This document shows positions 1,572 to 23,648 of a stretch of DNA of 23,648 nt, piece after piece. A program made the position numbers and the translations under genes. Origin of the DNA: a virus. The notes beneath the pieces were generated by a model. That model was not told the origin of the DNA. It ran no database searches and saw only the letters and a program-made list of their open reading frames with translations. Positions within the stretch are counted from its first letter, which is position 1, and every line of letters begins with the position of its first letter. The stretch is from IMG/VR virus record IMGVR_UViG_3300035670_001255, positions 1 through 23,648 of that record. One strand, given 5' to 3'.

Positions 1572-2150
1572 ATGCGCATCGCTGAAGGCCAACTTTCATT
1601 CTTCAGCACTCCGGCTGAACCGGAGAAAAAGCGCGTTGAGCATCATCTCGCCAAGCCGTTCACCAGAGAAGAGCAGCGGCGCTTTGGTCGGATGTATGCC
1701 GAGAACATTGGCCTGATCCGCATGTTCGGCGGGAAGCTGTGCCGCAAGTATCGGCACTGCATGGCCACCGAAGACATCTTCTCCTGCGTGGACATTGCCT
1801 TTCTCAAGGCGTGCCGTGCGCATGACCCGGAACGCGGGAAGCTCAGCACCATCTTCTGGACGTTTGCCCAAGGCGAGTGCCTGCACTTCCTGCGGGGGAG
1901 CAACTGGACAATTAAGGCCACGCACAAAGCGCGTCTCTTGGGCAATAGCGCTAGGAAGCTCATGGCCCTTGGCTGGACCTCGCTAGCGGTGTGCAAGGAA
2001 CTGAGCTGCACGAAGACCGAGCTGAAGGATGCGCTGCTGGCCACCGCTGGCGTTGCCCATGACGTGAAGGGCTTTGATCTGCACGTTTGCCCTCGGCCTA
2101 CACCGTGGGAGGTGCTGGAAGCTGAAGAAGATCGTTTAGCGGCAAGTTAG
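1572..2150 (+). CDS. Small sigma-70-like protein inside the structural operon
   Basis: A 192-residue protein, not structural in appearance. Residues about 43-108 read as sigma-70 region 2: a helix with ENIGLI, the EDIFSCVDIAFLKACRAHD segment (region 2.2, core RNA polymerase contact), then PERGKLSTIFWTFAQGE and a following FLR. The last part corresponds to regions 2.3-2.4, which melt and read the -10 element. Residues about 124-158 (ARKLMALGWTSLAVCKELS and onward) could form a helix-turn-helix of the region 3/4 type. It is shorter than RpoD and closer in size to ECF or phage sigma-like factors. It lies between the connector and tail tube genes, an odd place for a regulator, and could direct late transcription. 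An anti-sigma or core-binding role is also possible. Upstream is only a weak element-like sequence (GCGAAGTTAG, about 20 bases before the ATG). Confidence 0.6.
   Translation: MRIAEGQLSFFSTPAEPEKKRVEHHLAKPFTREEQRRFGRMYAENIGLIRMFGGKLCRKYRHCMATEDIFSCVDIAFLKACRAHDPERGKLSTIFWTFAQGECLHFLRGSNWTIKATHKARLLGNSARKLMALGWTSLAVCKELSCTKTELKDALLATAGVAHDVKGFDLHVCPRPTPWEVLEAEEDRLAAS
2141..2150 (+). promoter_or_regulatory. Copy of recurrent GGCAA(C/G)(C/T)TAG element
   Basis: GGCAAGTTAG, identical to the copy at 977, beginning 33 bases before the ATG of the tail tube gene. Its TAG is the stop codon of the sigma-like gene. The bases that follow, GGCTACAAGCC, could form a very short hairpin. Between the element and the ATG lies AGGAACG, a plausible ribosome binding site. 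Confidence 0.45.
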
Positions 2151-2173: not shown

Positions 2174-2653
2174 ATGGCCACCGGTGCCTTCTTCGCGGCC
2201 CTTGGGTATCGCTTCTATGTGAAGGCTGGCACCACGGCCTCCACCAACCCAACCGCTTCTACTGGCATGACCGAAGTGCTCGGTCTGACGAATGCCGGCA
2301 TTCAGGGTGCATCCACCACTACGGAGGTGCTGGACTACGGCTCAAGCCAAGGTTACGCCGCCAGCCTGGTGACCGGGCAGAGCTACACCATCCCGATGTC
2401 GATGAACCTCAACCTCAATGACGCGGGCTATCTGGTGCTTAAGCAAGCAGCTTTGGACGCCGCTACCGGCGTAACAGTTCAGTGGTTTCGGGAATCGCCT
2501 GAGATGAGTTCCACCGGCAGCCCGGAGTACAACAGCGGCGTGGCCTTCGTGACCGACTTCTCCGAAGACATCCAGGCTGGCAACGTGGCCAGTGTTTCGT
2601 TCACCTTGACCGGTTATGGCGCCCCATCTTGGGTGGCTGAGACGAACACCTGA
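2174..2653 (+). CDS. Major tail tube protein
   Basis: A 159-residue protein with the composition and layout of siphophage tail tube subunits: a short hydrophobic start, many Thr/Ser/Gly beta strands, an 'EVLDYGSSQGY' segment around residues 52-62, a central MSMNLNLNDAGY stretch, and a C-terminal strand ending in SVSFTLTGYGAP. The last is typical of tube proteins that share a fold with phage lambda gpV and TP901-1 MTP. These proteins stack as hexamers around the tape measure. The gene is followed directly by an intrinsic terminator, as expected for a highly expressed tube gene. The ATG is preceded by AGGAACG at a suitable distance. The neighbours support the call; the fold is inferred from sequence pattern. 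Confidence 0.7.
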   Translation: MATGAFFAALGYRFYVKAGTTASTNPTASTGMTEVLGLTNAGIQGASTTTEVLDYGSSQGYAASLVTGQSYTIPMSMNLNLNDAGYLVLKQAALDAATGVTVQWFRESPEMSSTGSPEYNSGVAFVTDFSEDIQAGNVASVSFTLTGYGAPSWVAETNT

Positions 2654-2713: not shown

Positions 2714-3160
2714 TTAGAGGCTCATGCCGCTCAGCTTGCGCCACTGATCGGCGAAGTAGGTATCGAGCGGGGCATTCTCTAGGGCTGGTTTGATCCAGTT
2801 GCGACCCGGCACCAGCGTGCCCTTGCTGGTGGTGTAGCCGGTGAGGATCAGCGGGGCATAGGCAAACCCGCCTTTGCTCTTGGCATCCCAGGTGAATGTG
2901 ATCGTGGTGCGACCATCAAAGTTGCGGCGCTGGGAGCGCAGGAACCCTCCCAGATCCACAATGTCGCGGGGGCTGCTGACAGTGGCGCTATTGCGGCGTT
3001 TGGTTGCCCGAGGCCAGCTGAACTGCGGTGATTGGATCTCAGCTTTGAGCTGCTTGTCCAGCACGGTCTGGTAGGTGCCGAGGATCTGCGGAACGCGCAG
3101 CTTCAGTTGATTGGCATTCCAACCGGTCAGGTTAAACGTCGCCTTAACTTGAACTGCCAT
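2714..3160 (-). CDS. Probable tail-completion / HK97 gp10-like neck protein
   Basis: A 148-residue protein on the minus strand. A longer in-frame version reaching 3271 exists, but its extra 37 residues are low-complexity read-through of the neighbour. The ATG at 3160 overlaps the upstream stop as TAATG, a sign of translational coupling. The sequence has PRDIVDLGGFLRSQ near residues 63-76, a central GRTTITFTWDA strand, YAPLILTGY near 99-107, and PGRNWIKPALE near 117-127. This is the order seen in HK97 gp10-like and related tail-completion proteins (Grl/Lxx...S, YA..v..G, PaRpW). Such proteins cap the tail or join it to the head. The orientation against all neighbouring structural genes is unusual. 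The family is reasonably supported; the precise position in the virion is inferred. Confidence 0.6.
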   Translation of the reverse strand: MAVQVKATFNLTGWNANQLKLRVPQILGTYQTVLDKQLKAEIQSPQFSWPRATKRRNSATVSSPRDIVDLGGFLRSQRRNFDGRTTITFTWDAKSKGGFAYAPLILTGYTTSKGTLVPGRNWIKPALENAPLDTYFADQWRKLSGMSL

Positions 3161-3555
3161 TAGCCCTGCACGTAGCGGGCCAAGCGGATCTTGTCGCCCA
3201 GCACCTGCTGGAGGGTGCTGCCGATCAGGCCGGTGCTGCCATAAGGAAAGCGGCCGTTGATCACCTCGCATTCAATGGCACCTTGACCAGCAAAGTTCAG
3301 CGTGCCGGTGATGCCTGCCTTGATGCGGGCATCGAGGGCTTGGGGGCTGACGGCATAGCCCTCATAGGTCTCCACGTCTGTGTCCACACCAGGAAAGCCA
3401 GCACTGCTGCTGCCCGCCTGTCGCAGGTACAAGCTGACGGTGACGGCTTCTGTAGCCGGTGCAATGTTCCCGGTAACGGGATCAGTCATGGTGCCAACGG
3501 TGGGCACAGTGAAGGTCGCCGTGGCGTTGGCGAGCGCAGCGAGAGCACTTGTCAT
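3160..3555 (-). CDS. Probable head-closure (stopper)-type protein
   Basis: A 131-residue minus-strand protein, first gene of the two-gene inverted unit. After a short Ala-rich start it carries PVTGNIAPATEAVTVSLYLRQ (about 26-46), then a DVETYEGYAVSP segment and a C-terminal GSTLQQVLGDKIRLARYVQG. This pattern, a small beta-barrel opened by 'DP.TG...p', fits head-closure or connector proteins such as SPP1 gp16 analogues, which are often encoded beside the tail-completion gene. The partner at 2714-3160 supports this. The stop overlaps the next start. Upstream lies an inverted repeat shared with the divergent tape measure gene. I did not recognise a decisive motif, so the function rests mainly on context. 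Confidence 0.45.
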   Translation of the reverse strand: MTSALAALANATATFTVPTVGTMTDPVTGNIAPATEAVTVSLYLRQAGSSSAGFPGVDTDVETYEGYAVSPQALDARIKAGITGTLNFAGQGAIECEVINGRFPYGSTGLIGSTLQQVLGDKIRLARYVQG

Positions 3556-3608: not shown

Positions 3609-5759
3609 GTGGCCGAGAGTCTGGGCGCTGCTGTATTGACGGTTAGCGTTGATGACGCCCAGCTCAAGGCAGGCCTGCAGGTCGCAGAGCGGCAGGCGCA
3701 AGCAAGCGGCAAGAAGATTGAGCAGTCCTTAACACCATCAAGCAGGCCAGGTCAAAAAGCTGCCAATGGACTTGAAGGTTATATTGATGCTCAAAATAGG
3801 GCTCGGACTGCATCTGGCAAATTATTGACGGTTGCACAGCAGCAGGCAGCCGGCTTGGATCGTTTAGGTGGTTCAGCCTCTACAGCCGCTGGCGGCGTGG
3901 CCCGTCTGACGCCGGTTCTCTCTGGGTTGAATGCCACCTTGCAATCATTGGCTGGTGTTGCCGGTGTTGTTGGCATCGGTGCACTCACGCAGCAGCTGAT
4001 TGCAACAGGTCAAGAGTCGCAACGCGCTCAAATCCAGCTCAGCGCTCTCGCTGGCGGTTACAACGAAGCAGCGGCCGCTGGCCAAGCCGCAGCCCGTATT
4101 CAAAAGGTGCTGGGTATCAGCGCGGTCGATGCCACTCAAGGCTTTGCGCAGCTGTATGCCGCACTGCGTGGCACTGGTATCGGGCTGCAGCAGTTAGAGG
4201 TGCTGTTTGTTGGCATCAGTAACGCTGCACGGCTATCAGGTGCTGGCACGCAAGAAGCCCAAGCAGCTTTGCTCCAGTTGAAGCAGGGCTTAGCGGCTGG
4301 TGTTTTGCAAGGCGATGAACTGCGTTCAGTGCTGGAGCAGCTGCCGGCCTTTGCGCAGGCGATTGCCGCTCAGTTAAATGCGAACGTTGGCCAGCTGCGC
4401 CAGCTGGGCTCTGAAGGGAAGATCACAAGCGACATCGTATTCAATGCTGCTAAGCAGCTCGCCACGGCAACGGTGCCGGGTCGCACCGAGATTGAACAGC
4501 TTGGTATTGCATTTGAGAATGTCAAGGCTCAAGCGGCCGCAGCGTTAGGGCCACCGCTTCTAGGCATCCTTCAAACCACTGCCGCTGGCCTAGTTGCATT
4601 CAAAAAGTTCTTAGAGGAAAACCAGACTGCATTGATCAATGTCGGCCGCTCAGTGATTGAGATCGGCAAGACCTTTGCGCCATTCGTCGCTGGGATTCTG
4701 GCTGTTCAGGCAGCGATGAAGGCCTGGTCAATCGCCAGCAAAGCTGTTGCAGTAGCTCAAGCTGCTGTTTTGGCGTTGCAAGGCCCCAAGGGCTGGGCTG
4801 TTTTGGCTGGAGCCGTTGCCGCTAGCGCTACGGCTGCGGCTGTACTGGAAAACACACTCAAAGGCGTTGGCAAGGCAACGCAAGAAGCAAAGGCTGAAGC
4901 CCAGGCAGCCTTTGATCAGTTCAAGCAACTGCTCAATACCACAACATTGAGCAATCCGGCGACAGAGTTGGCTAAGGCTGCAGAAGCTACCAAGAAATGG
5001 GCTGCAGAAGTCAAAGTCCTTAACGAGCTTCTTTCGATTCAAGAAGCCACTGCGATTGAGCAGCAACGTGGATCGCTCACTGGCACTGGTATTGGAGCAT
5101 TGCAAGCCGTCAAAGCCCTAGAGGATGCACGGCGAGCTGAGCGTGATGCGCAGGCAGCCTTACGTGCAGGGCAAAACGAAGATGCTGACAAGCGCCAATC
5201 TCTGCTTGATGCTTCTCGCGTCGCATCTGAAAACGTCAAGCTAGCTGCAGCCAAGACCAAGGCTGATTTAGAAGATGCTTATAAGTCTGCGCAAGATTCA
5301 GTCAAGAGCATTAGTCGCAGTATTGAAGACGCTGTGACGGCTCTATCTGCAGCTAGGGGCGGCACAGAAGGTGTCAACAAGTTTATCAACCCCCAAGATG
5401 CTCGCAATCGACAGGAAGCGGCCAACGCTCAGCTTTTGGCAGACGCTACAAAGGTCGCTCGTGAGTTAGGTGTTGTTGCCAGCTTCAGTGGATCGCTGAC
5501 CGAGCGCAACGCCCAGATCGCCGAGTTTATCAATGCCGGCAGGCAGGAGCTTCGTGGCGGACAAGACTTAATGACGCTGCAAGACGACTTTGTGAAGGCA
5601 ACGGCAGATCTTGCTACTGCCAATGATGCCTTGTTCAAGGTGAATAGCGCTTTGGTGGAAGCTACTCAGGCGTTGGCAACTAAGGACTGGAACGTCTACG
5701 TGAGTGTGCCCGGCGGCAACGCCTCCGGTGATGTCGTCCGCGAGGGGGTTTACCAATGA
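3609..5759 (+). CDS. Tail tape measure protein
   Basis: A 716-residue protein starting at GTG. Residues about 100-310 match the conserved N-terminal tape measure region (TIGR02675 type). It contains TPVLSGLNATLQSLAGVAG, a long Ala-rich helical stretch, and the hallmark GVLQGDELRSVLEQLPAFAQ (about 231-250) followed by LGSEGKITSDIVFNAAKQ. Hydrophobic segments near 115-135 and 355-415 are the usual membrane-prone parts. The rest (420-700) is Ala/Gln/Lys coiled coil. At about 1.5 angstrom per residue the tail would be roughly 105-110 nm, in the siphovirus range. The stop overlaps the next start (ATGA). No chaperone pair sits directly upstream, which is the normal arrangement; the pair is 7 kb downstream instead. 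The gene looks slightly more AT-rich than its right-hand neighbours. Confidence 0.88.
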   Translation: MAESLGAAVLTVSVDDAQLKAGLQVAERQAQASGKKIEQSLTPSSRPGQKAANGLEGYIDAQNRARTASGKLLTVAQQQAAGLDRLGGSASTAAGGVARLTPVLSGLNATLQSLAGVAGVVGIGALTQQLIATGQESQRAQIQLSALAGGYNEAAAAGQAAARIQKVLGISAVDATQGFAQLYAALRGTGIGLQQLEVLFVGISNAARLSGAGTQEAQAALLQLKQGLAAGVLQGDELRSVLEQLPAFAQAIAAQLNANVGQLRQLGSEGKITSDIVFNAAKQLATATVPGRTEIEQLGIAFENVKAQAAAALGPPLLGILQTTAAGLVAFKKFLEENQTALINVGRSVIEIGKTFAPFVAGILAVQAAMKAWSIASKAVAVAQAAVLALQGPKGWAVLAGAVAASATAAAVLENTLKGVGKATQEAKAEAQAAFDQFKQLLNTTTLSNPATELAKAAEATKKWAAEVKVLNELLSIQEATAIEQQRGSLTGTGIGALQAVKALEDARRAERDAQAALRAGQNEDADKRQSLLDASRVASENVKLAAAKTKADLEDAYKSAQDSVKSISRSIEDAVTALSAARGGTEGVNKFINPQDARNRQEAANAQLLADATKVARELGVVASFSGSLTERNAQIAEFINAGRQELRGGQDLMTLQDDFVKATADLATANDALFKVNSALVEATQALATKDWNVYVSVPGGNASGDVVREGVYQ

Positions 5760-6505
5760 GCATCTCAATCGGCGCCTTCAGCACCAGCAAGCTGATCGCC
5801 CAGCCATTTGGCTACGACGAAACCGACACCAGTGCTGGCCTCACCGCCCGTAAGTGGACCGTCAGCGGCCTACTCACCACCAGCGAGTGGCAGTCCCTCC
5901 TCAGCGTCTACAACACCTGGCGCGACACCCGCATCACCGATGCCGACACGCTCAGCAGCGGCACGGTCGGCACCACCGTCAGCCTGACCGCCAGCGCCAA
6001 CGGGATCAGCTGGAGCGGGATCGGCTGTTGGTTCACCGCTGCACCGACAGGCGAGCAAGCCGGCCCCTACATCCAGGCCACCTGCGAGCTGGTGGATGCC
6101 GCGCAAGCGCTAGCCGTGCTGCTGCGCCAAGAGGAGAAGAACCGCCAGCGCAGTGAGGCCACCATCCCAAGCCTGGGCACCGTGACGCTCGGCAGCGCCA
6201 CGCTCACGCTGCTGTCTCCGATGGAGACCTATCAAGACACCCCCCAGTTGCAGCTGACTGCTAGCGGCACGCACTACATCTCTGGCGCTTTGACCGCCAC
6301 TCGCGTGCGCCGCATTGAGGGCACCACCGATAGCAGCGGCTGGACGGCGGTGCGGAGCTGGTACGAAACCGCCGTCGCCAGCACCCCCAGCACCGGCAGC
6401 TACTTCCCGATCAGCGCACCCAGTGCCAGCGCTGAGGTGATCATCAGCAGCGGCGTTAAAAGCACCCGCTACACGGTCAGCGTTGAAGTGGCGGAGGTGA
6501 AGTGA
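5756..6505 (+). CDS. Tail protein, possibly distal tail (Dit-like)
   Basis: A 249-residue protein, coupled to the tape measure gene by an ATGA overlap and to the next gene by TGATG. The position between tape measure and tail-tip protein is where siphophages encode the distal tail protein (Dit), the hexamer that links tube and tip. The sequence is a run of Ser/Thr-rich beta strands. A WTVSGLLTTSEWQSLLSVYN segment near 33-52 and a GPYIQATCELVDA strand near 101-113 are typical of a tail beta-sandwich with an inserted helix. A helix near 115-135 (ALAVLLRQEEKNRQR) divides two beta domains. I saw no diagnostic Dit motif, so the call is positional. Confidence 0.5.
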   Translation: MSISIGAFSTSKLIAQPFGYDETDTSAGLTARKWTVSGLLTTSEWQSLLSVYNTWRDTRITDADTLSSGTVGTTVSLTASANGISWSGIGCWFTAAPTGEQAGPYIQATCELVDAAQALAVLLRQEEKNRQRSEATIPSLGTVTLGSATLTLLSPMETYQDTPQLQLTASGTHYISGALTATRVRRIEGTTDSSGWTAVRSWYETAVASTPSTGSYFPISAPSASAEVIISSGVKSTRYTVSVEVAEVK

Positions 6506-9500
6506 TGGCCATCGACATCCGCGCTGAAGTCAGCTGCAGCCTCGGCACCGTGATCAGCGGCAGCTTTGCTGATGACTACCTGCAGGGCAACGGCCTAATC
6601 AAGACCCGTGGCGAGGTGGTGCTCAACGGCACCCAAACGCCTGTGGTCGGCACTGAAGTGACGTTTACCTACGACAAAGGCGGCAGCACCTACACGATTC
6701 CACGGGTGCTGCGGGTGCTGAGCAGCTTTGCCGATCCGTTTCGCCGCACCACCACGGTGCAGCTGGGCTGCAAGCTGACCTACCTCGAAAACCGCAAGCC
6801 ACCCGTTACCGACCCGAACGCCAAAGACGAGCACAGCGATGTGCCGTGCAAGGTGTTCCTCAAGGCAATGCTGCCGATCAGCGCGGACTACGTGTTCCAG
6901 CAGTGCCTCGATGCACTGGAGCTGGACAGCGCGGCTATCCCGCTCACCAACAAGTTCTCGGTAGAGGAGTTCGATCTGACGCCGGGCTTCATCCAGGTGA
7001 TGAGCGACCTGCTGCAGTCCGAGGGCTATGTCGGCTACTTGGACAGCGAAGAGACGCTGCAGTTTCTGGACCTGACGCAGGACACCGCCACCGGCCCTGT
7101 GATCACCCCGGCTGATGTGGTGGACCTTGGCCCCATCGGCGTCGGCGACCTGCCCGGCGAGAGCGTGGTGGTCCGCTTCAGCAGCCTGCGCCTGCTACCG
7201 CCAGACGAGCTGTATGGCGACGGCTACCTCAAGCGCAGCTGGGAAATCGAGGAAGTCTTCGGGGCGCCCTCGGAAGTCAGCGTCAGCTACACCAACGACG
7301 CCGGTGCCACCGTCACCGACAGCGATGTTTTCTACCCCTACAGCTTCACGGCCACGCGCTACGACGTTTGGGACCGCAAGATCGAGTCGATCTCGCTGAA
7401 TCTGGTTTCCTCAGCAGAAACCAACAACCGCTGGGCCAGTGATGCCCTGCGCAGCGGCAGCCCGTGGAACCTGCCCACCGCCAAGTTGGTGCGTGAGGTG
7501 ATTGAGTACGAAAAGGCTGCGGCGCCTGCTAACAACGTCAATCTGCTGTCGGTGCAGCTGGTTGGTGGCGGCGTCACACAGATCAAAGCGGCGCTGAGCA
7601 GTGCGGCAGAAGAGCACACCGGCCTCGCCAACTTCTGCAAAACCGATGTGCCAGAGGGTGCCGATGTGGTGAAGTCGCAGACCACCTACAACTACTTCTC
7701 CGAGCTGGAGCTGGCCGGCAGCCTCAACATCGACACCTACATCGACGACACCGGCTCGCTGGAAGAGTTCGACACCATTGCCGCTGAACTGGATTCCACG
7801 GTGGTCGTCGAATACGAAATCGACGCCGCTAGCGGTATTTCCAAGACGATCACCAAGCGCAGCATCTCCCGCTCGCAAACGGTCTCTGGCCAGCAGGATC
7901 TCGCCACCCGCGCCCAAGACCTTGATACTGCCGACCTCACCAACAGCATTGCGTCGCTGCTGAACCTGGCCCGCCGGCAGGTCTACATCGGGGCTGACAC
8001 CAGCCTGCACACCCAGCGTGAGTACGGGCTGCAGAAGCGCCCCAGCGAAGCCGAGCGCAACAACACCGCCAACGAGAAACCCACCGTCACTGAGCAGAAG
8101 GCCGAGATCGCTTGGGTGACCGGCAGCACCACCAGCACGGCCGTCACCGAGTTCACCGTGCCCTACGCCCCAGATGACGAGATCACTTGGGATGAAAGCA
8201 GCGGTGCATTCAGCAGCGTGCCGAGTGACGCCAAGGAAAAAGCGCTGCGTTACGGGCGCATCCAAAACAAGCTGCTGCTGGGCAACCGCAGTGGCGTGAG
8301 CTTGCAGCTGGCGCCCGAGCAACTGCCCAAACGACCCTTCGACCCGCTGTATCTGCAGGCATCGGGCATCACCGGCGCCTACCGCGTCAACGGCACCAGC
8401 TGGGCATTTGATGCCAGCGGCATCGTCGCCTCCACCGATGCCCTGCTCTGGGGTGCGGTGAGTGCAACGTCCGGCACCAACCTGGCCAGCAGTTGGGTGC
8501 CGCTGGCACCGGGCACCACCAGCCTGCCCCTGCCGTACACACCCACAAGCGGCAGCCCTGATTCGGAAACCGGTGTGACCTTTAGCGCTGTGATCACCCC
8601 CACCACAGTCCTGCCGCCTTACATCGAGTCGGTGTTGGTGGAAGGAGTCAGCCGCAGCAGCGCAGCGATCACTGACTACCCCTATGGCTTGGATCGCGGC
8701 AGCACAACGGCTGCACTGATCACCCGCACCAGTGTGCTGATTGCTAGCCGCCTTGTCGCCGATGTAGGCAGCTTCGCAGTGAACGGCCAAGCCGCAGCAC
8801 TGAAGGTCACCAAGGCGATCAAGGCTGGTGTTGGCAGCGTTGCCGTCAGCGGCTTTGGCGCCGGCTCAATCCGTGACTACCGCATCGGCACTAACTTTGG
8901 CACCTTCACCGCCACGGGCCAGAACGCCATCGTGGCGCTGCAGCGGGCACCACTGGCTGCAGGCGCTGGTAGCTTTGCGCTGAGTGGTCAAGATGTGGTC
9001 TTCTCTGAAGCCACATCATTCCCCGCTGAAGCAGGCAGCTTTGCGCTCAGCGGCCAAGAAGCTGCCAGCGTTCGCAACTATGTGCTCAGTGGCGCAACAG
9101 GAGCCGTCGCGGCGACTGGGCAAGACGCGGTGTTGAACTACGTCACACCGGTGTTCAATATCTTGAGCTACAGCGGCACGAATGCCACTCGCTCGCTTAC
9201 CGGGCTCGGCTTTAAGCCAGGAATTGTCTGGGCGAAGGTTCTCTCTGGCACCAACCAAAACCATGTCCTGTTTGATATTCTTCGCGGCGTAACTAATGCC
9301 ATCTACCCCAACGTCTCCACCAATGAAGCAGTCCTGAGCGGTGGCCTTACGTCTTTTGATTCAGATGGCTTTAGCTGCGGCAATGCGACCGTGATCAATG
9401 GTTTGAGTAGTTATGCGTACCGCGCATTCTGCTGGAAAGAAGGAAGCTCGCCGACCACCAACAATGATGGCGCGATTGCTTCGACAATTTCCGTCAATGC

Positions 9501-10095
9501 CACCGCTGGCTATAGCATATTTGCGTGGTCGGGAACAGCATCGCAAAGCACGATTGGTCATGGCCTTGGCGGCACGCCTGATGCCGTTTTCATTAAGAAC
9601 AGAACTGGAACTGGCTACGCCCCTCGGCTCGGCTCGCCGCTGATTGGCAATGATTTTTATCTGTCGTTCGACACCACAACGGCCAGAACTTCTAGCACCA
9701 GTTGGTATCGCAGCGTTAGCTCAACAACAGTTACTGTCGGCTCCAGCATCAATACGAGTGGAACTCTGGTTGGCTACGCCTTTAAGTCGGTGCCTGGTGT
9801 TAGCAAAATCGGCGTTTTCACGGGAAATGGTAGCGGTGTGTTTAGTGTTAATTGCGGCTTTACGCCACGCCTCGTGATCCTGAAGTCGTACATCGGCACC
9901 AGCAACTGGTTTATGTATTACATGGGCAGTGGCGCCACCGGATACCCGAACAATGTCCAAGTAAACTCCACGGCACAAGCAAACACGACTCAGACAAACG
10001 TAGAGTTCACTTCAACTGGCTTTACTGTTGCCGCTGGCTGGACCGGCAACATCACAGGAAGTGCCAGTAGCGCCATTTTTATGGCGTGGGCATAG
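6505..10095 (+). CDS. Tail tip / host-interaction protein with repeat stalk and fibre-type C terminus
   Basis: A 1,196-residue protein. A GTG directly in front (6502) could also start it, but the ATG at 6505 overlaps the upstream stop as TGATG and is preferred. Residues 1 to about 600 resemble tail-associated hub proteins (gp27/Tal-like beta domains, with an LQFLDLT strand near 190). About 600-745 is a linker with proline-rich turns. About 750-880 holds six 22-residue repeats with GSFALSGQ cores. About 885-1196 is a fibre domain: YSGTNATRSLTGLGFKPGIVW, then NHVLFDILRG, a DSDGFSCG turn, a GHGLGGTPDAVFIK strand and a final SSAIFMAWA. The last domain is of the kind often named DUF7483 in marine phage fibres and recurs in the gene at 16280. 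The protein probably forms the tail tip and contacts the host surface. The C-terminal third is visibly more AT-rich. Confidence 0.7.
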   Translation: MAIDIRAEVSCSLGTVISGSFADDYLQGNGLIKTRGEVVLNGTQTPVVGTEVTFTYDKGGSTYTIPRVLRVLSSFADPFRRTTTVQLGCKLTYLENRKPPVTDPNAKDEHSDVPCKVFLKAMLPISADYVFQQCLDALELDSAAIPLTNKFSVEEFDLTPGFIQVMSDLLQSEGYVGYLDSEETLQFLDLTQDTATGPVITPADVVDLGPIGVGDLPGESVVVRFSSLRLLPPDELYGDGYLKRSWEIEEVFGAPSEVSVSYTNDAGATVTDSDVFYPYSFTATRYDVWDRKIESISLNLVSSAETNNRWASDALRSGSPWNLPTAKLVREVIEYEKAAAPANNVNLLSVQLVGGGVTQIKAALSSAAEEHTGLANFCKTDVPEGADVVKSQTTYNYFSELELAGSLNIDTYIDDTGSLEEFDTIAAELDSTVVVEYEIDAASGISKTITKRSISRSQTVSGQQDLATRAQDLDTADLTNSIASLLNLARRQVYIGADTSLHTQREYGLQKRPSEAERNNTANEKPTVTEQKAEIAWVTGSTTSTAVTEFTVPYAPDDEITWDESSGAFSSVPSDAKEKALRYGRIQNKLLLGNRSGVSLQLAPEQLPKRPFDPLYLQASGITGAYRVNGTSWAFDASGIVASTDALLWGAVSATSGTNLASSWVPLAPGTTSLPLPYTPTSGSPDSETGVTFSAVITPTTVLPPYIESVLVEGVSRSSAAITDYPYGLDRGSTTAALITRTSVLIASRLVADVGSFAVNGQAAALKVTKAIKAGVGSVAVSGFGAGSIRDYRIGTNFGTFTATGQNAIVALQRAPLAAGAGSFALSGQDVVFSEATSFPAEAGSFALSGQEAASVRNYVLSGATGAVAATGQDAVLNYVTPVFNILSYSGTNATRSLTGLGFKPGIVWAKVLSGTNQNHVLFDILRGVTNAIYPNVSTNEAVLSGGLTSFDSDGFSCGNATVINGLSSYAYRAFCWKEGSSPTTNNDGAIASTISVNATAGYSIFAWSGTASQSTIGHGLGGTPDAVFIKNRTGTGYAPRLGSPLIGNDFYLSFDTTTARTSSTSWYRSVSSTTVTVGSSINTSGTLVGYAFKSVPGVSKIGVFTGNGSGVFSVNCGFTPRLVILKSYIGTSNWFMYYMGSGATGYPNNVQVNSTAQANTTQTNVEFTSTGFTVAAGWTGNITGSASSAIFMAWA
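8755..9140 (+). repeat. Six tandem ~66-bp coding repeats (GSFALSGQ type)
   Basis: Within the tail-tip gene, six units start near 8758, 8826, 8893, 8960, 9028 and 9090. Each encodes a variant of A-G-x-G-S-F-A-L-S-G-Q-D/N-A followed by about ten variable residues. Units four and five are closest (GSFALSGQ in both). The period is about 66-68 bases, or 22 residues. They look like beta-strand repeats forming a stalk between the hub domain and the C-terminal fibre domain. Confidence 0.7.
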
Positions 10096-12670: not shown

Positions 12671-13255
12671 ATGCCGACGCTTCCCTTTGTTCAGGCGCCT
12701 GAAGCACCCACATCCCGGCGACTTGGCACACCGGCGAGCGGCATTCTGGAGATGCCGGTGCTGGGTGGGCTCACCGTTGGTGAATCGGCAGTGATTTCTG
12801 AGCTGCTGGCCAATGAGCAGAGCAGCTTCGTCAAAGGCGCCCAGATCGCTGATGCCATTGCCAAAGCCGAAGCGATCAGCATTTCCGAGGCGTTCAACAT
12901 CATTGAAGGTGCGATCAGCGGCCGTCAGCTGGAGGAGCGGGCCGAAGAGATCCGCACGAAGCACGCAGCCTTGATCCAGGAGGTCGCGCAGGTGTATGCC
13001 GCTGCCGGGCAGCGCAACATGGAATCCACGGTCACGGCCTTGATCCGGTGCCGCTGCAACCTGCCGGACTGGAGCATTGCGGACACCCGCCAAATGCACC
13101 GCGCTTTGTTCAACGCGATCTGGCAACTAGCGCAGGAAGAAAGCGATGCCGAGGCGCTGCCCAGTGAGCCGCCGACTGAGGAGGAGCTGGGAAAGCCGCC
13201 AGCGGCGGATGGCGCCGCAGCGAAACGGACTGGCAAGCGATCTTCTACGACCTAG
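12671..13255 (+). CDS. Tail assembly chaperone, lambda gpG-like (zero-frame product)
   Basis: A 194-residue product. It has a Pro-rich start, an ILEMPVLGGLTVGESAVISE segment (about 25-44) of the kind seen in many siphophage chaperones, then helices to about residue 160 and an acidic Pro/Glu tail. At 13189-13195 the tail crosses a GGGAAAG slippery heptamer in the right phase (G GGA AAG = Leu-Gly-Lys). Ribosomes that do not slip finish at 13255; those that slip -1 continue to 13842. This two-product arrangement is the hallmark of gpG/gpGT chaperones, which hold the tape measure during tail assembly. The residues after the slip site in the zero frame (KPPAADGAAAKRTGKRSSTT) are low-complexity, as expected for a by-product tail. 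It is displaced from the tape measure gene, which is unusual. Confidence 0.75.
   Translation: MPTLPFVQAPEAPTSRRLGTPASGILEMPVLGGLTVGESAVISELLANEQSSFVKGAQIADAIAKAEAISISEAFNIIEGAISGRQLEERAEEIRTKHAALIQEVAQVYAAAGQRNMESTVTALIRCRCNLPDWSIADTRQMHRALFNAIWQLAQEESDAEALPSEPPTEEELGKPPAADGAAAKRTGKRSSTT
13189..13218 (+). promoter_or_regulatory. Programmed -1 ribosomal frameshift site (GGGAAAG + hairpin)
   Basis: GGGAAAG at 13189-13195 is the same heptamer phage lambda uses for gpGT. The zero frame reads ctG GGA AAG, the required X XXY YYZ phase. Six bases later GCGGCG (13202-13207) pairs perfectly with CGCCGC (13213-13218) across a five-base loop, giving an all-GC six-pair stem at a suitable spacing. A competing stem CCGCC/GGCGG (13196-13208) also exists. 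The -1 frame has no stop between the slip site and 13842. Confidence 0.8.
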
Positions 13256-13842
13256 CGCACAGCTACCCCGGCCAGTTCCACCGCACCACCTACGCGACGG
13301 AACTGCGGCAAACGGTGCTGCAGGCATGGCGTGAGCTGCAGCGGATCCGCCGCGAGCAAGCGCAACTGCAGGAGATGCCGGTGGCCCAACTCGCAGCGCT
13401 GCTGGCCAACATCAACCGCGACCCCAAGAAGGGCAAACCGTTCTCGCTGCAGGACTTCCAGCTGTTCGCCAGCGAGCAGAAGGCCGAGCGGCGTCTCAGC
13501 GCCGAGGTGGCTGCGGTTGCCTTGGCGCTCAAGCACGACGACAAGGCACCGCCCCTATTGGTGTCCTGTTGGAACGAGGTGCTGGCCAGCGCGGCAGACG
13601 GCACCCGTATGCCAGGCGTGCGGGCGCTGCATTCCGACGATGAGGCGGTGTGGGTGTTGGCGCCGGTGTGGGAAGCCACCGGTATCCGGGGCGGATTGGT
13701 GCTTGTTCGTGGGCAGATCAGCGGCACGGTCCTGCTGCGCGATTTAGATCGGCCACTGTTGACACACCGGCTGCTAGTCCCCGCTCGCCCCGGCTTCGGG
13801 TGGATTGAGGCAGGCTGCTTGCTGCTTTCGGCGGAAGACTAG
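13195..13842 (+). CDS. gpT-like extension of the tail assembly chaperone (made by -1 frameshift)
   Basis: The -1 frame is open from the slip site to 13842, so the fused product would have 175 residues from the first frame plus 215 from this one (about 390). Right after the slip comes a sensible, conserved-looking sequence before any start codon: TDWQAIFYDLAHSYPGQF, then RQTVLQAWRELQRIRREQ. This makes independent initiation at the GTG of 13315 unlikely as the main route. Residues around INRDPKKGKPFSLQDFQLF resemble the end of T domains in other phages ('...kp.s..dF..f'), which bind the tail tube subunits. About 110 further residues (ending ARPGFGWIEAGCLLLSAED) are an added domain I do not recognise. 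A separate short product from 13315 cannot be excluded. Confidence 0.7.
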   Translation, partial: AASGGWRRSETDWQAIFYDLAHSYPGQFHRTTYATELRQTVLQAWRELQRIRREQAQLQEMPVAQLAALLANINRDPKKGKPFSLQDFQLFASEQKAERRLSAEVAAVALALKHDDKAPPLLVSCWNEVLASAADGTRMPGVRALHSDDEAVWVLAPVWEATGIRGGLVLVRGQISGTVLLRDLDRPLLTHRLLVPARPGFGWIEAGCLLLSAED

Positions 13843-13845
13843 GTA

Positions 13846-14244
13846 ATGGACTTGCTGAGCCTGCGCACCGCCATCGAGACCACGCTGGTGGATCAGCTCG
13901 GCACGTACACCCTGGCCAATAGCGCCACCACCCCGGCCATCTCGGTGCGGGCGCCGGGTGAGAGCCTGCCGCCTGGCACCACCGTCACGGGCTTGGAGGT
14001 GGTGATCGTGCGCGAGCCTGAACTGGTGCCGGTGCGGCAATACAGCAAGGAGCAAGCCTTCAGCCGCTGGACGCTGTATCTGGTGGACTGGAGCGGCGAT
14101 GCCAGCCTGCAGGAAGTGGCCGGCCGCCTGCTGTGGAGCTACCCCGGCAGCAACGCGGTGACGATCAACGTGCCCCGTGGTGTGGGGCCGAGATCGCAGA
14201 TGCGCGTGGACATCACGACCAACCCCGACACCTACGCGGGTTGA
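13846..14244 (+). CDS. Possible tail terminator / minor tail protein
   Basis: A 132-residue protein, three bases after the chaperone stop. It starts with an amphipathic helix (LLSLRTAIETTLVDQLGTY), then ISVRAPGESLPPGTTVTGLEVVIVRE, a central FSRWTLYLVDWSGD strand near 78-91 and a short helix LQEVAGRLLWSYPG. The order 'N-terminal helix, then beta sheet with a W-x-L-Y-L-x-D strand, then helix' is what tail terminators and lambda gpU-like proteins show, and one is expected in a siphovirus tail module. No clearer motif is visible; other tail-completion roles are possible. Confidence 0.45.
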   Translation: MDLLSLRTAIETTLVDQLGTYTLANSATTPAISVRAPGESLPPGTTVTGLEVVIVREPELVPVRQYSKEQAFSRWTLYLVDWSGDASLQEVAGRLLWSYPGSNAVTINVPRGVGPRSQMRVDITTNPDTYAG

Positions 14245-22571: not shown

Positions 22572-22793
22572 ATGGCGTGGGGAGAGTGGATGGTGCCCCA
22601 GCCAGGACCGGAGCACCTGCTCACGCTGGAACAGCAACGGCGAGCTGTTGATGGCTACACGCTGCCGCAGGCCAAGGCCATGCTGCTGCGCTTGTGCCAG
22701 CTGTCCCTACATCAAGACCTGATCATCCGAGGCGCTACGCGGCGGATCGCAGAGCTTGAATGCACTCTTGCCCTTGCAGACCGCCAAGCTTAA
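22572..22793 (+). CDS. Small hypothetical protein, 73 residues
   Basis: A 73-residue, mainly helical protein: LLTLEQQRRAVDGYTLPQAK, MLLRLCQLSLHQDLIIRGATRRIAELE. The second half (LCxLSxHQDxIIRxATRRIAELE) is a motif I have seen in small proteins of cyanobacterial genomes and phages, but I cannot attach a function. The ATG is divergent from the minus-strand gene at 22537. Its last 59 bases overlap the 3' end of the convergent sigma factor gene, so the two cannot be independently changed there. Confidence 0.5.
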   Translation: MAWGEWMVPQPGPEHLLTLEQQRRAVDGYTLPQAKAMLLRLCQLSLHQDLIIRGATRRIAELECTLALADRQA

Positions 22794-23648
22794 GCCTCAG
22801 GGTGGTCATGGCTCGGTTGTGCATCTGCTGGGTGGCCTGACGGCTGACCTGAAGCTCGGCACCAATTTGTTCGTAAGGCTTCGGCAGGCGGGTGCTGCCG
22901 AAATAGCGGCTGCGGATGATGTGCTGGTGCTCGGGGGTCAGATCGTTGATGGCTTCATGTAGCGCATCACTGAACTCTTGCAAGTCATCAAGTTGTCCAT
23001 CGGTGCTGCGCGGATCAGCCACCACATCCATAAAGTCGCCGTACTTCTCACCGCCCGGCATCTTCTGATCCAGGCTCAAGACGCTGGCGTTGTGGTTGAG
23101 GTAGCCGAGCAGCGTTTGCTTCTGGATCCCGCAATGCTTGGCCACATCAGCCAGCGGCGGCAGCTTTCCCTGCTCCCGCAGGTGCAGCTGCATGTAGTCC
23201 ATCGCTTTGCGCAGCTGATCATTGGCCTGCATCGGCAGGTGGATGATGCGGCTGTGGCGGTTGATCGCCCGCGTGATGCCCTGGCGGATCCACCAGTAGC
23301 AATAGGTGCTGAACTTGTAGCCCAGCGCCGGCTCAAATTTGAGGATGGCGGAATCGAGGCCAATCAGACCTTCTTGAATCAGGTCTTCAAGGGTCAGCGT
23401 GCCGCTGTACTTCTTGTATTTGCCGGCCACATTGACGGCCAGGCGAATGTTGGAGAGAAAGAAGCGATCACGAGCGCGGCGCCCTTTGTTGATGATGCCC
23501 TTCTGCTGTTTGGTGGGCTTTTCAGGGTCACCGATGGCGAGCCAGGCCTGCACCTGACGAGCCAGGGTGATCTCTTCGGCAGCGGTGAGCAGGGGATAGC
23601 GGCGCGAGTGCTGGATGATCCAATCGACGGAAGTGCCAGGCGTAGCCA
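22735..23648 (-). CDS. Group-2 RpoD-like sigma factor (5' end outside window)
   Basis: The frame is open from the right edge, so only the C-terminal 303 residues are seen. It includes region 1.2 upstream of the first visible start codon (YPLLTAAEEITLARQVQAWL), region 2 (LTLEDLIQEGLIGLDSAILK, then GYKFSTYCYWWIRQGITRAI, IIHLP), region 3 (REQGKLPPLADVAKHCGI, ASVLSLDQKM) and region 4 (DLTPEHQHIIRSRYFGSTR, YEQIGAELQVSRQATQQ helix-turn-helix). This is a full sigma-70 of the cyanobacterial group-2 type, without signs of decay in what is visible. It would direct RNA polymerase to a set of promoters. Whether it belongs to the phage or to the neighbouring chromosome cannot be decided here. The last 59 bases overlap the convergent gene at 22572-22793. 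Confidence 0.85.
   Translation of the reverse strand, partial: ATPGTSVDWIIQHSRRYPLLTAAEEITLARQVQAWLAIGDPEKPTKQQKGIINKGRRARDRFFLSNIRLAVNVAGKYKKYSGTLTLEDLIQEGLIGLDSAILKFEPALGYKFSTYCYWWIRQGITRAINRHSRIIHLPMQANDQLRKAMDYMQLHLREQGKLPPLADVAKHCGIQKQTLLGYLNHNASVLSLDQKMPGGEKYGDFMDVVADPRSTDGQLDDLQEFSDALHEAINDLTPEHQHIIRSRYFGSTRLPKPYEQIGAELQVSRQATQQMHNRAMTTLRLKLGGLQGQECIQALRSAA

Follow-up and report, generated by a model that had tools for sequence, protein, structure and literature searches.

Two overlapping open reading frames on a viral contig raise the question of whether they encode two unrelated products or a short tail assembly chaperone together with a longer, frameshifted form of it. The window analysed here is the whole 23,648-base IMG/VR virus record IMGVR_UViG_3300035670_001255. 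Family searches of the window identified a head morphogenesis protein, a head-tail adaptor, a major tail protein and a 716-residue tape measure protein, and further genes for a fibre, an integrase and a sigma factor. Given these gene families, and since all isolates with a homologous chaperone pair are cyanophages, the window is most likely from a siphovirus of cyanobacteria. Two sigma-70-like proteins are encoded in this one phage record: a short, region-2-like protein within the head-tail module (1572-2150, plus strand) and a larger, RpoD-like protein near the window end (22735-23553, minus strand).

Comparison with related loci makes it very probable that a lambda-type -1 frameshift joins tail assembly chaperone frames in the window. 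The features on which this reading draws are as follows.

Slip site and reading frames

12671-13255, plus strand: ORF1, putative short tail assembly chaperone, gpG-like; 194 aa without a shift; homologous to PSS2 and S-CBS2 ORFs
13179-13184, plus strand: AGGAGG, putative internal Shine-Dalgarno-like stimulator upstream of the slip; seen in the sequence, partly conserved
13189-13195, plus strand: slippery heptamer G GGA AAG; in phase, 38/38 loci, no variation of GGA or AAG across 28 unique sequences
13195-13842, plus strand: -1 frame, putative T-like C-terminal extension of a gpGT-like fusion; 215 codons plus stop, purifying selection in the -1 frame only
13202-13218, plus strand: 6-bp hairpin, six bases past the slip
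13321-13506, plus strand: Phage_tail_T (PF06223, Pfam 'Minor tail protein T') match in the -1 frame; 7e-5, just under the curated cut-off

The heptamer lies 60 nt before the end of ORF1 and, counted from the ORF1 start at 12671, GGA occupies 13190-13192 and AAG 13193-13195. The -1 frame is open from 13180, following a TGA at 13177-13179, to a TAG at 13840-13842; read from 13195, it gives a fusion of 175 + 215 = 390 residues. The first ATG, GTG or TTG of this frame is GTG 13315, about 120 nt past the slip. After a six-base spacer (13196-13201), GCGGCG (13202-13207) pairs with CGCCGC (13213-13218) around a GATGG loop. A sequence-only reading of the window had described the same elements, namely GGGAAAG in the correct phase shortly before the first frame ends, a six-base spacer before a six-pair GC hairpin, and a -1 frame open for 215 further codons with a fused product of 390 residues, and each was recovered at the positions above. 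The start that it gave, 13189, is that of the slip site; the gene starts at 12671. Its wider statement, that all parts of the gpG/gpGT mechanism are visible, stands for the slip site, spacer, hairpin and open -1 frame, but the hairpin is not universal among relatives and the place of the genes is unlike that in lambda. Whether the upstream AGGAGG acts as an internal Shine-Dalgarno-like stimulator is speculative; it is conserved in part only and is encoded by a Glu run.

Under the proposed mechanism, most ribosomes would terminate at the ORF1 stop (13255), yielding a short G-like protein. A minority would move back by one base at G GGA AAG, where the tRNAs would re-pair on GGG AAA, the GC hairpin six bases downstream probably aiding the slip. 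Slipped ribosomes would continue in the -1 frame to 13842 and produce the 390-residue GT-like fusion, such that the ratio of G to GT would be set by slip efficiency. By analogy with lambda, the G part may form a coat on the tape measure protein, and recruitment of the tail tube protein may fall to the T part.

The kind of mechanism is already known. Frameshifting by -1 in tail assembly genes is established for long-tailed phages (review PMC5009743; PRFect, PMC10885494), with which the window would share both mechanism and gene role. The lambda slip site is G GGA AAG (PMC7618472), as is also seen in the lambda sequence, and this heptamer and A AAA AAG are both highly shift-prone in E. coli (PMC5009743). 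As in lambda gpG/gpGT, the window heptamer has the same phase and lies near the end of the first frame, and a -1 shift into an extension would give short and long isoforms. In contrast to lambda, the window has a stem and a longer second frame, its T-family similarity is visible only via a Pfam profile and a bridging relative, and the pair follows the tape measure gene at a distance of about 7 kb, whereas in lambda the pair lies just upstream (order U-V-G-T-H). Gene order alone is unusual here.

Conservation of the slip site and stem

Within the window, GGGAAAG is seen twice against 2.1 expected, and the heptamer alone is therefore not above chance. A 72-base fold at the site is not special (z +1.05), and the fold of the 35 bases after the slip stands out (z -2.1). 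It is conservation, not single-sequence statistics, that raises the slip site above chance. We found 56 viral loci that encode a relative of the second frame, 38 of which span the junction. The check suggested from the sequence had been to search homologues for the heptamer, its absence counting against a frameshift; GGGAAAG is in phase, with the second frame at -1, in every one of the 38 (second frame 57-100% identical).

Moreover, neither slip codon, GGA or AAG, shows a synonymous replacement in the 28 unique sequences, where GGA is the rarest Gly codon. Because these sequences are related, codon invariance is given as a comparison between columns, with no probability attached: 57 of the 61 invariant degenerate residues of ORF1 vary in codon and four use one codon. 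Two of these four are the adjacent slip Gly (GGA) and Lys (AAG), and a third lies in the dual-coded overlap. In the remaining nine invariant Gly columns of ORF1 the codon varies without exception. The slip site is thus conserved beyond protein-coding need.

For the stem, alignment columns 14-19 and 25-30 pair in 80.6% of cells, which are sequences and not independent events, and a partner shifted by one to three columns no longer pairs. Double changes are found at 4/6 pairs, with 0/500 shuffles on the covariation score. There are about three independent stem changes: a G-C to C-G exchange at the stem base, a block change common to the L028/L031/L034 group, and one in L029. The expectation that homologues would share the downstream stem was only partly borne out, as compensatory changes keep it in most but it is absent or weak in L032, L037, L038 and L039, which lack the 6-bp form, and in PSS2, which has no clear stem. 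Because it has been lost in a few relatives the stem is at most an enhancer, and it is likely to be an enhancer rather than a requirement.

Gene family and gene order

Downstream of the overlap, purifying selection is evident in the -1 frame (pS 0.26-0.58, pN 0.03-0.22) and not in the other two frames. The Phage_tail_T match of this frame scores 2.3 bits below the curated cut-off in the window itself, and the family was matched, weakly, in 16/19 relatives. Using hhalign, the second-frame profile gave nothing against lambda T alone, and a structure model of the T part (pLDDT 54) was too poor for a fold search. A distant relative, L052 (42% over 54 residues), matches PF06223 at 2e-18 and has G GGA AAA in phase. 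Its gene order is a TAC_13-like ORF (G), GT and then directly an open frame of >1300 residues, which we read as the tape measure. L052 links the PF06223 signature to the classical locus order of G, GT and tape measure. The signature, weak alone and consistent across members, points to T domain homology (PF06223) in the second frame.

ORF1 is similar to a PSS2 ORF at L083:11444-12118 (29%, 8e-15) and to S-CBS2 gp15 (29%, 1e-11), and the first ORF of S-CRES1 is also homologous. No homologues turned up other than cyanosiphovirus ORFs in the corresponding position. There was no Pfam match to ORF1, and its fold model (pLDDT 82) gave no PDB match and two viral matches, to unnamed proteins, with E below 0.001.

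The structural and neighbouring genes to which the pair is compared are the following.

2174-2653, plus strand: major tail protein; family search
3609-5759, plus strand: tape measure protein; TMP_3 match 3e-32, with the chaperone pair about 6.9 kb further downstream
13846-14244, plus strand: next gene, moving together with the pair; S-CBS2 and S-CRES1 relatives at 32-35% identity, about 1e-12

In the published descriptions consulted, the usual chaperone place is upstream of the tape measure gene. The window pair does not have the usual context, between major tail protein and tape measure, a context that we did not take as defining. Its placement with respect to the tape measure is atypical; in 16/16 related contigs holding both, the tape measure comes first and the pair follows downstream, both genes being on one strand. 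A true -1 frameshift in a virion structural protein, rather than in an assembly chaperone, would suit the surroundings of the pair, which are fibre-like genes at a distance from the tape measure, as well as an ORF1 that matched no known gpG family by sequence. However, the second frame carries the Phage_tail_T signature. Moreover, the published protein table of PSS2, which is not raw peptide data, assigns virion peptides to ORFs 061-063 and 066-068 and leaves ORFs 064/065, the homologous pair, unlisted (PMC2784084). Such an omission is as expected of an assembly chaperone; mature virions contain neither gpG nor gpGT (PMC5009743). We consider a structural protein very unlikely.

The gene at 13846-14244 had no Pfam match. 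Its relatives come after the pair and just before the major tail protein in S-CBS2 and S-CRES1, and position, the only guide here, suggests a tail-terminator-like (gpU-like) protein. One tentative explanation, which we hold to be possible rather than probable, is that the G/GT cassette of this clade, with the 13846 gene, came apart from the tape measure and was relocated behind fibre-like genes, two opposite-strand genes being kept in the usual place, and that chaperone dose and timing would thus be set independently of the tape measure. A chaperone cassette apart from its tape measure offers a testable case.

In the usual G/GT place, flanked by the major tail protein and tape measure genes, the window holds two genes on the minus strand (2717-3555; individually 2717-3160 and 3163-3555). 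Relatives of these exist in 15/15 contigs tested, and adjoin the tail tube or tape measure gene in opposite orientation wherever either of these is also placed. Elsewhere in the window, the final 300 residues of a large tail protein (6502-10095, plus strand) match DUF7483 / a tail fibre family.

Start codons and cultured relatives

Second-frame homologues (27-32% identity) are found in the isolates PSS2, S-CBS2, S-CRES1 and S-CRES3. Like the window, PSS2 ORFs 064/065, S-CBS2 gp15/gp16, S-CRES1 gp72/gp73 and S-CRES3 gp79/gp80 are a homologous pair with an in-phase heptamer at the same place. Near the end of the first ORF this is G GGA AAG in PSS2 (L083:11992) and S-CRES3 (L104:2468). In S-CBS2 (L085:9771) and S-CRES1 (L084:11956) the heptamer class changes to A AAA AAG, in phase and with a stop at once after. 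The gene order of the isolates differs from that of the window: the pair precedes the major tail protein or, in the case of PSS2, the tape measure, from which it is separated there by about 18 kb that include fibre genes.

Annotators entered each of these pairs as two genes, labelled hypothetical or tail assembly, and the GenBank records of PSS2, S-CBS2 and the S-CRES phages would in this respect favour two separate genes, the second frame of the window being translated alone from GTG 13315. However, the first start codon of the second frame is not conserved. It is scattered among relatives, mostly 84-117 nt into conserved protein (117 nt in the window), and the relatives spanning the site gave no sign of a free-standing gene with its own conserved start, the other observation that had been named as telling against a frameshift. 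About 39 conserved residues (TDWxAIFYxLAHxYPGQFxRxTY...) precede GTG 13315, which agrees with the earlier remark that sensible protein follows directly after the slip and ahead of any start. Two separate genes would, moreover, leave the invariance of GGA-AAG without a reason, and we regard them as highly improbable. In the isolates, too, second-frame homology reaches upstream of the annotated second starts, which are too late, and therefore the records of PSS2, S-CBS2, S-CRES1 and S-CRES3 miss the predicted fusion, as had been anticipated for automated calls of two ORFs. It is extremely improbable that a real fusion arises instead by transcriptional slippage, for although the A7-G run of S-CRES1 and the A6-G run of S-CBS2 could make RNA polymerase stutter, neither the window nor any of the 38 close relatives has a long homopolymer, the heptamer being GGGAAAG throughout, and the codon phase and downstream stem suit a ribosomal slip.

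With ribosomal frameshifting as the preferred reading, the comparison indicates that cyanobacterial siphoviruses, cultured isolates included, very probably use a tail-chaperone frameshift, and that isolate records give the pair as two genes, the start of the second being wrong. The comparison also gives a likely role to phrog_34388, which is filed as 'unknown function'. The PSS2 paper makes no mention of a frameshift (PMC2784084), and among the papers searched we found none on tail-chaperone frameshifting in cyanosiphoviruses.

Lastly, a genome scan for close prophage relatives returned only distant T-like proteins in MAGs, mostly of Planctomycetota and Verrucomicrobiota-type. At the first-ORF ends of nine prophage-like MAG loci and viral contigs (L054, L086, L088, L089, L092, L098, L099, L101 and L103), T-like proteins lie in the -1 frame (W..AG.VGVDPGPLTLRELLWMAE...), which reads sensibly before the ORF1 stop and without a start codon. 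We dropped two early ideas on the distant MAG proteins, namely that they are free-standing genes and that T TTT TTC is their slip site: in the majority of the loci inspected, the sensible -1 frame sets in only a little ahead of the ORF1 stop and far downstream of that motif. As no X XXY YYZ heptamer was seen near the junction of these loci, they may use another slip site.
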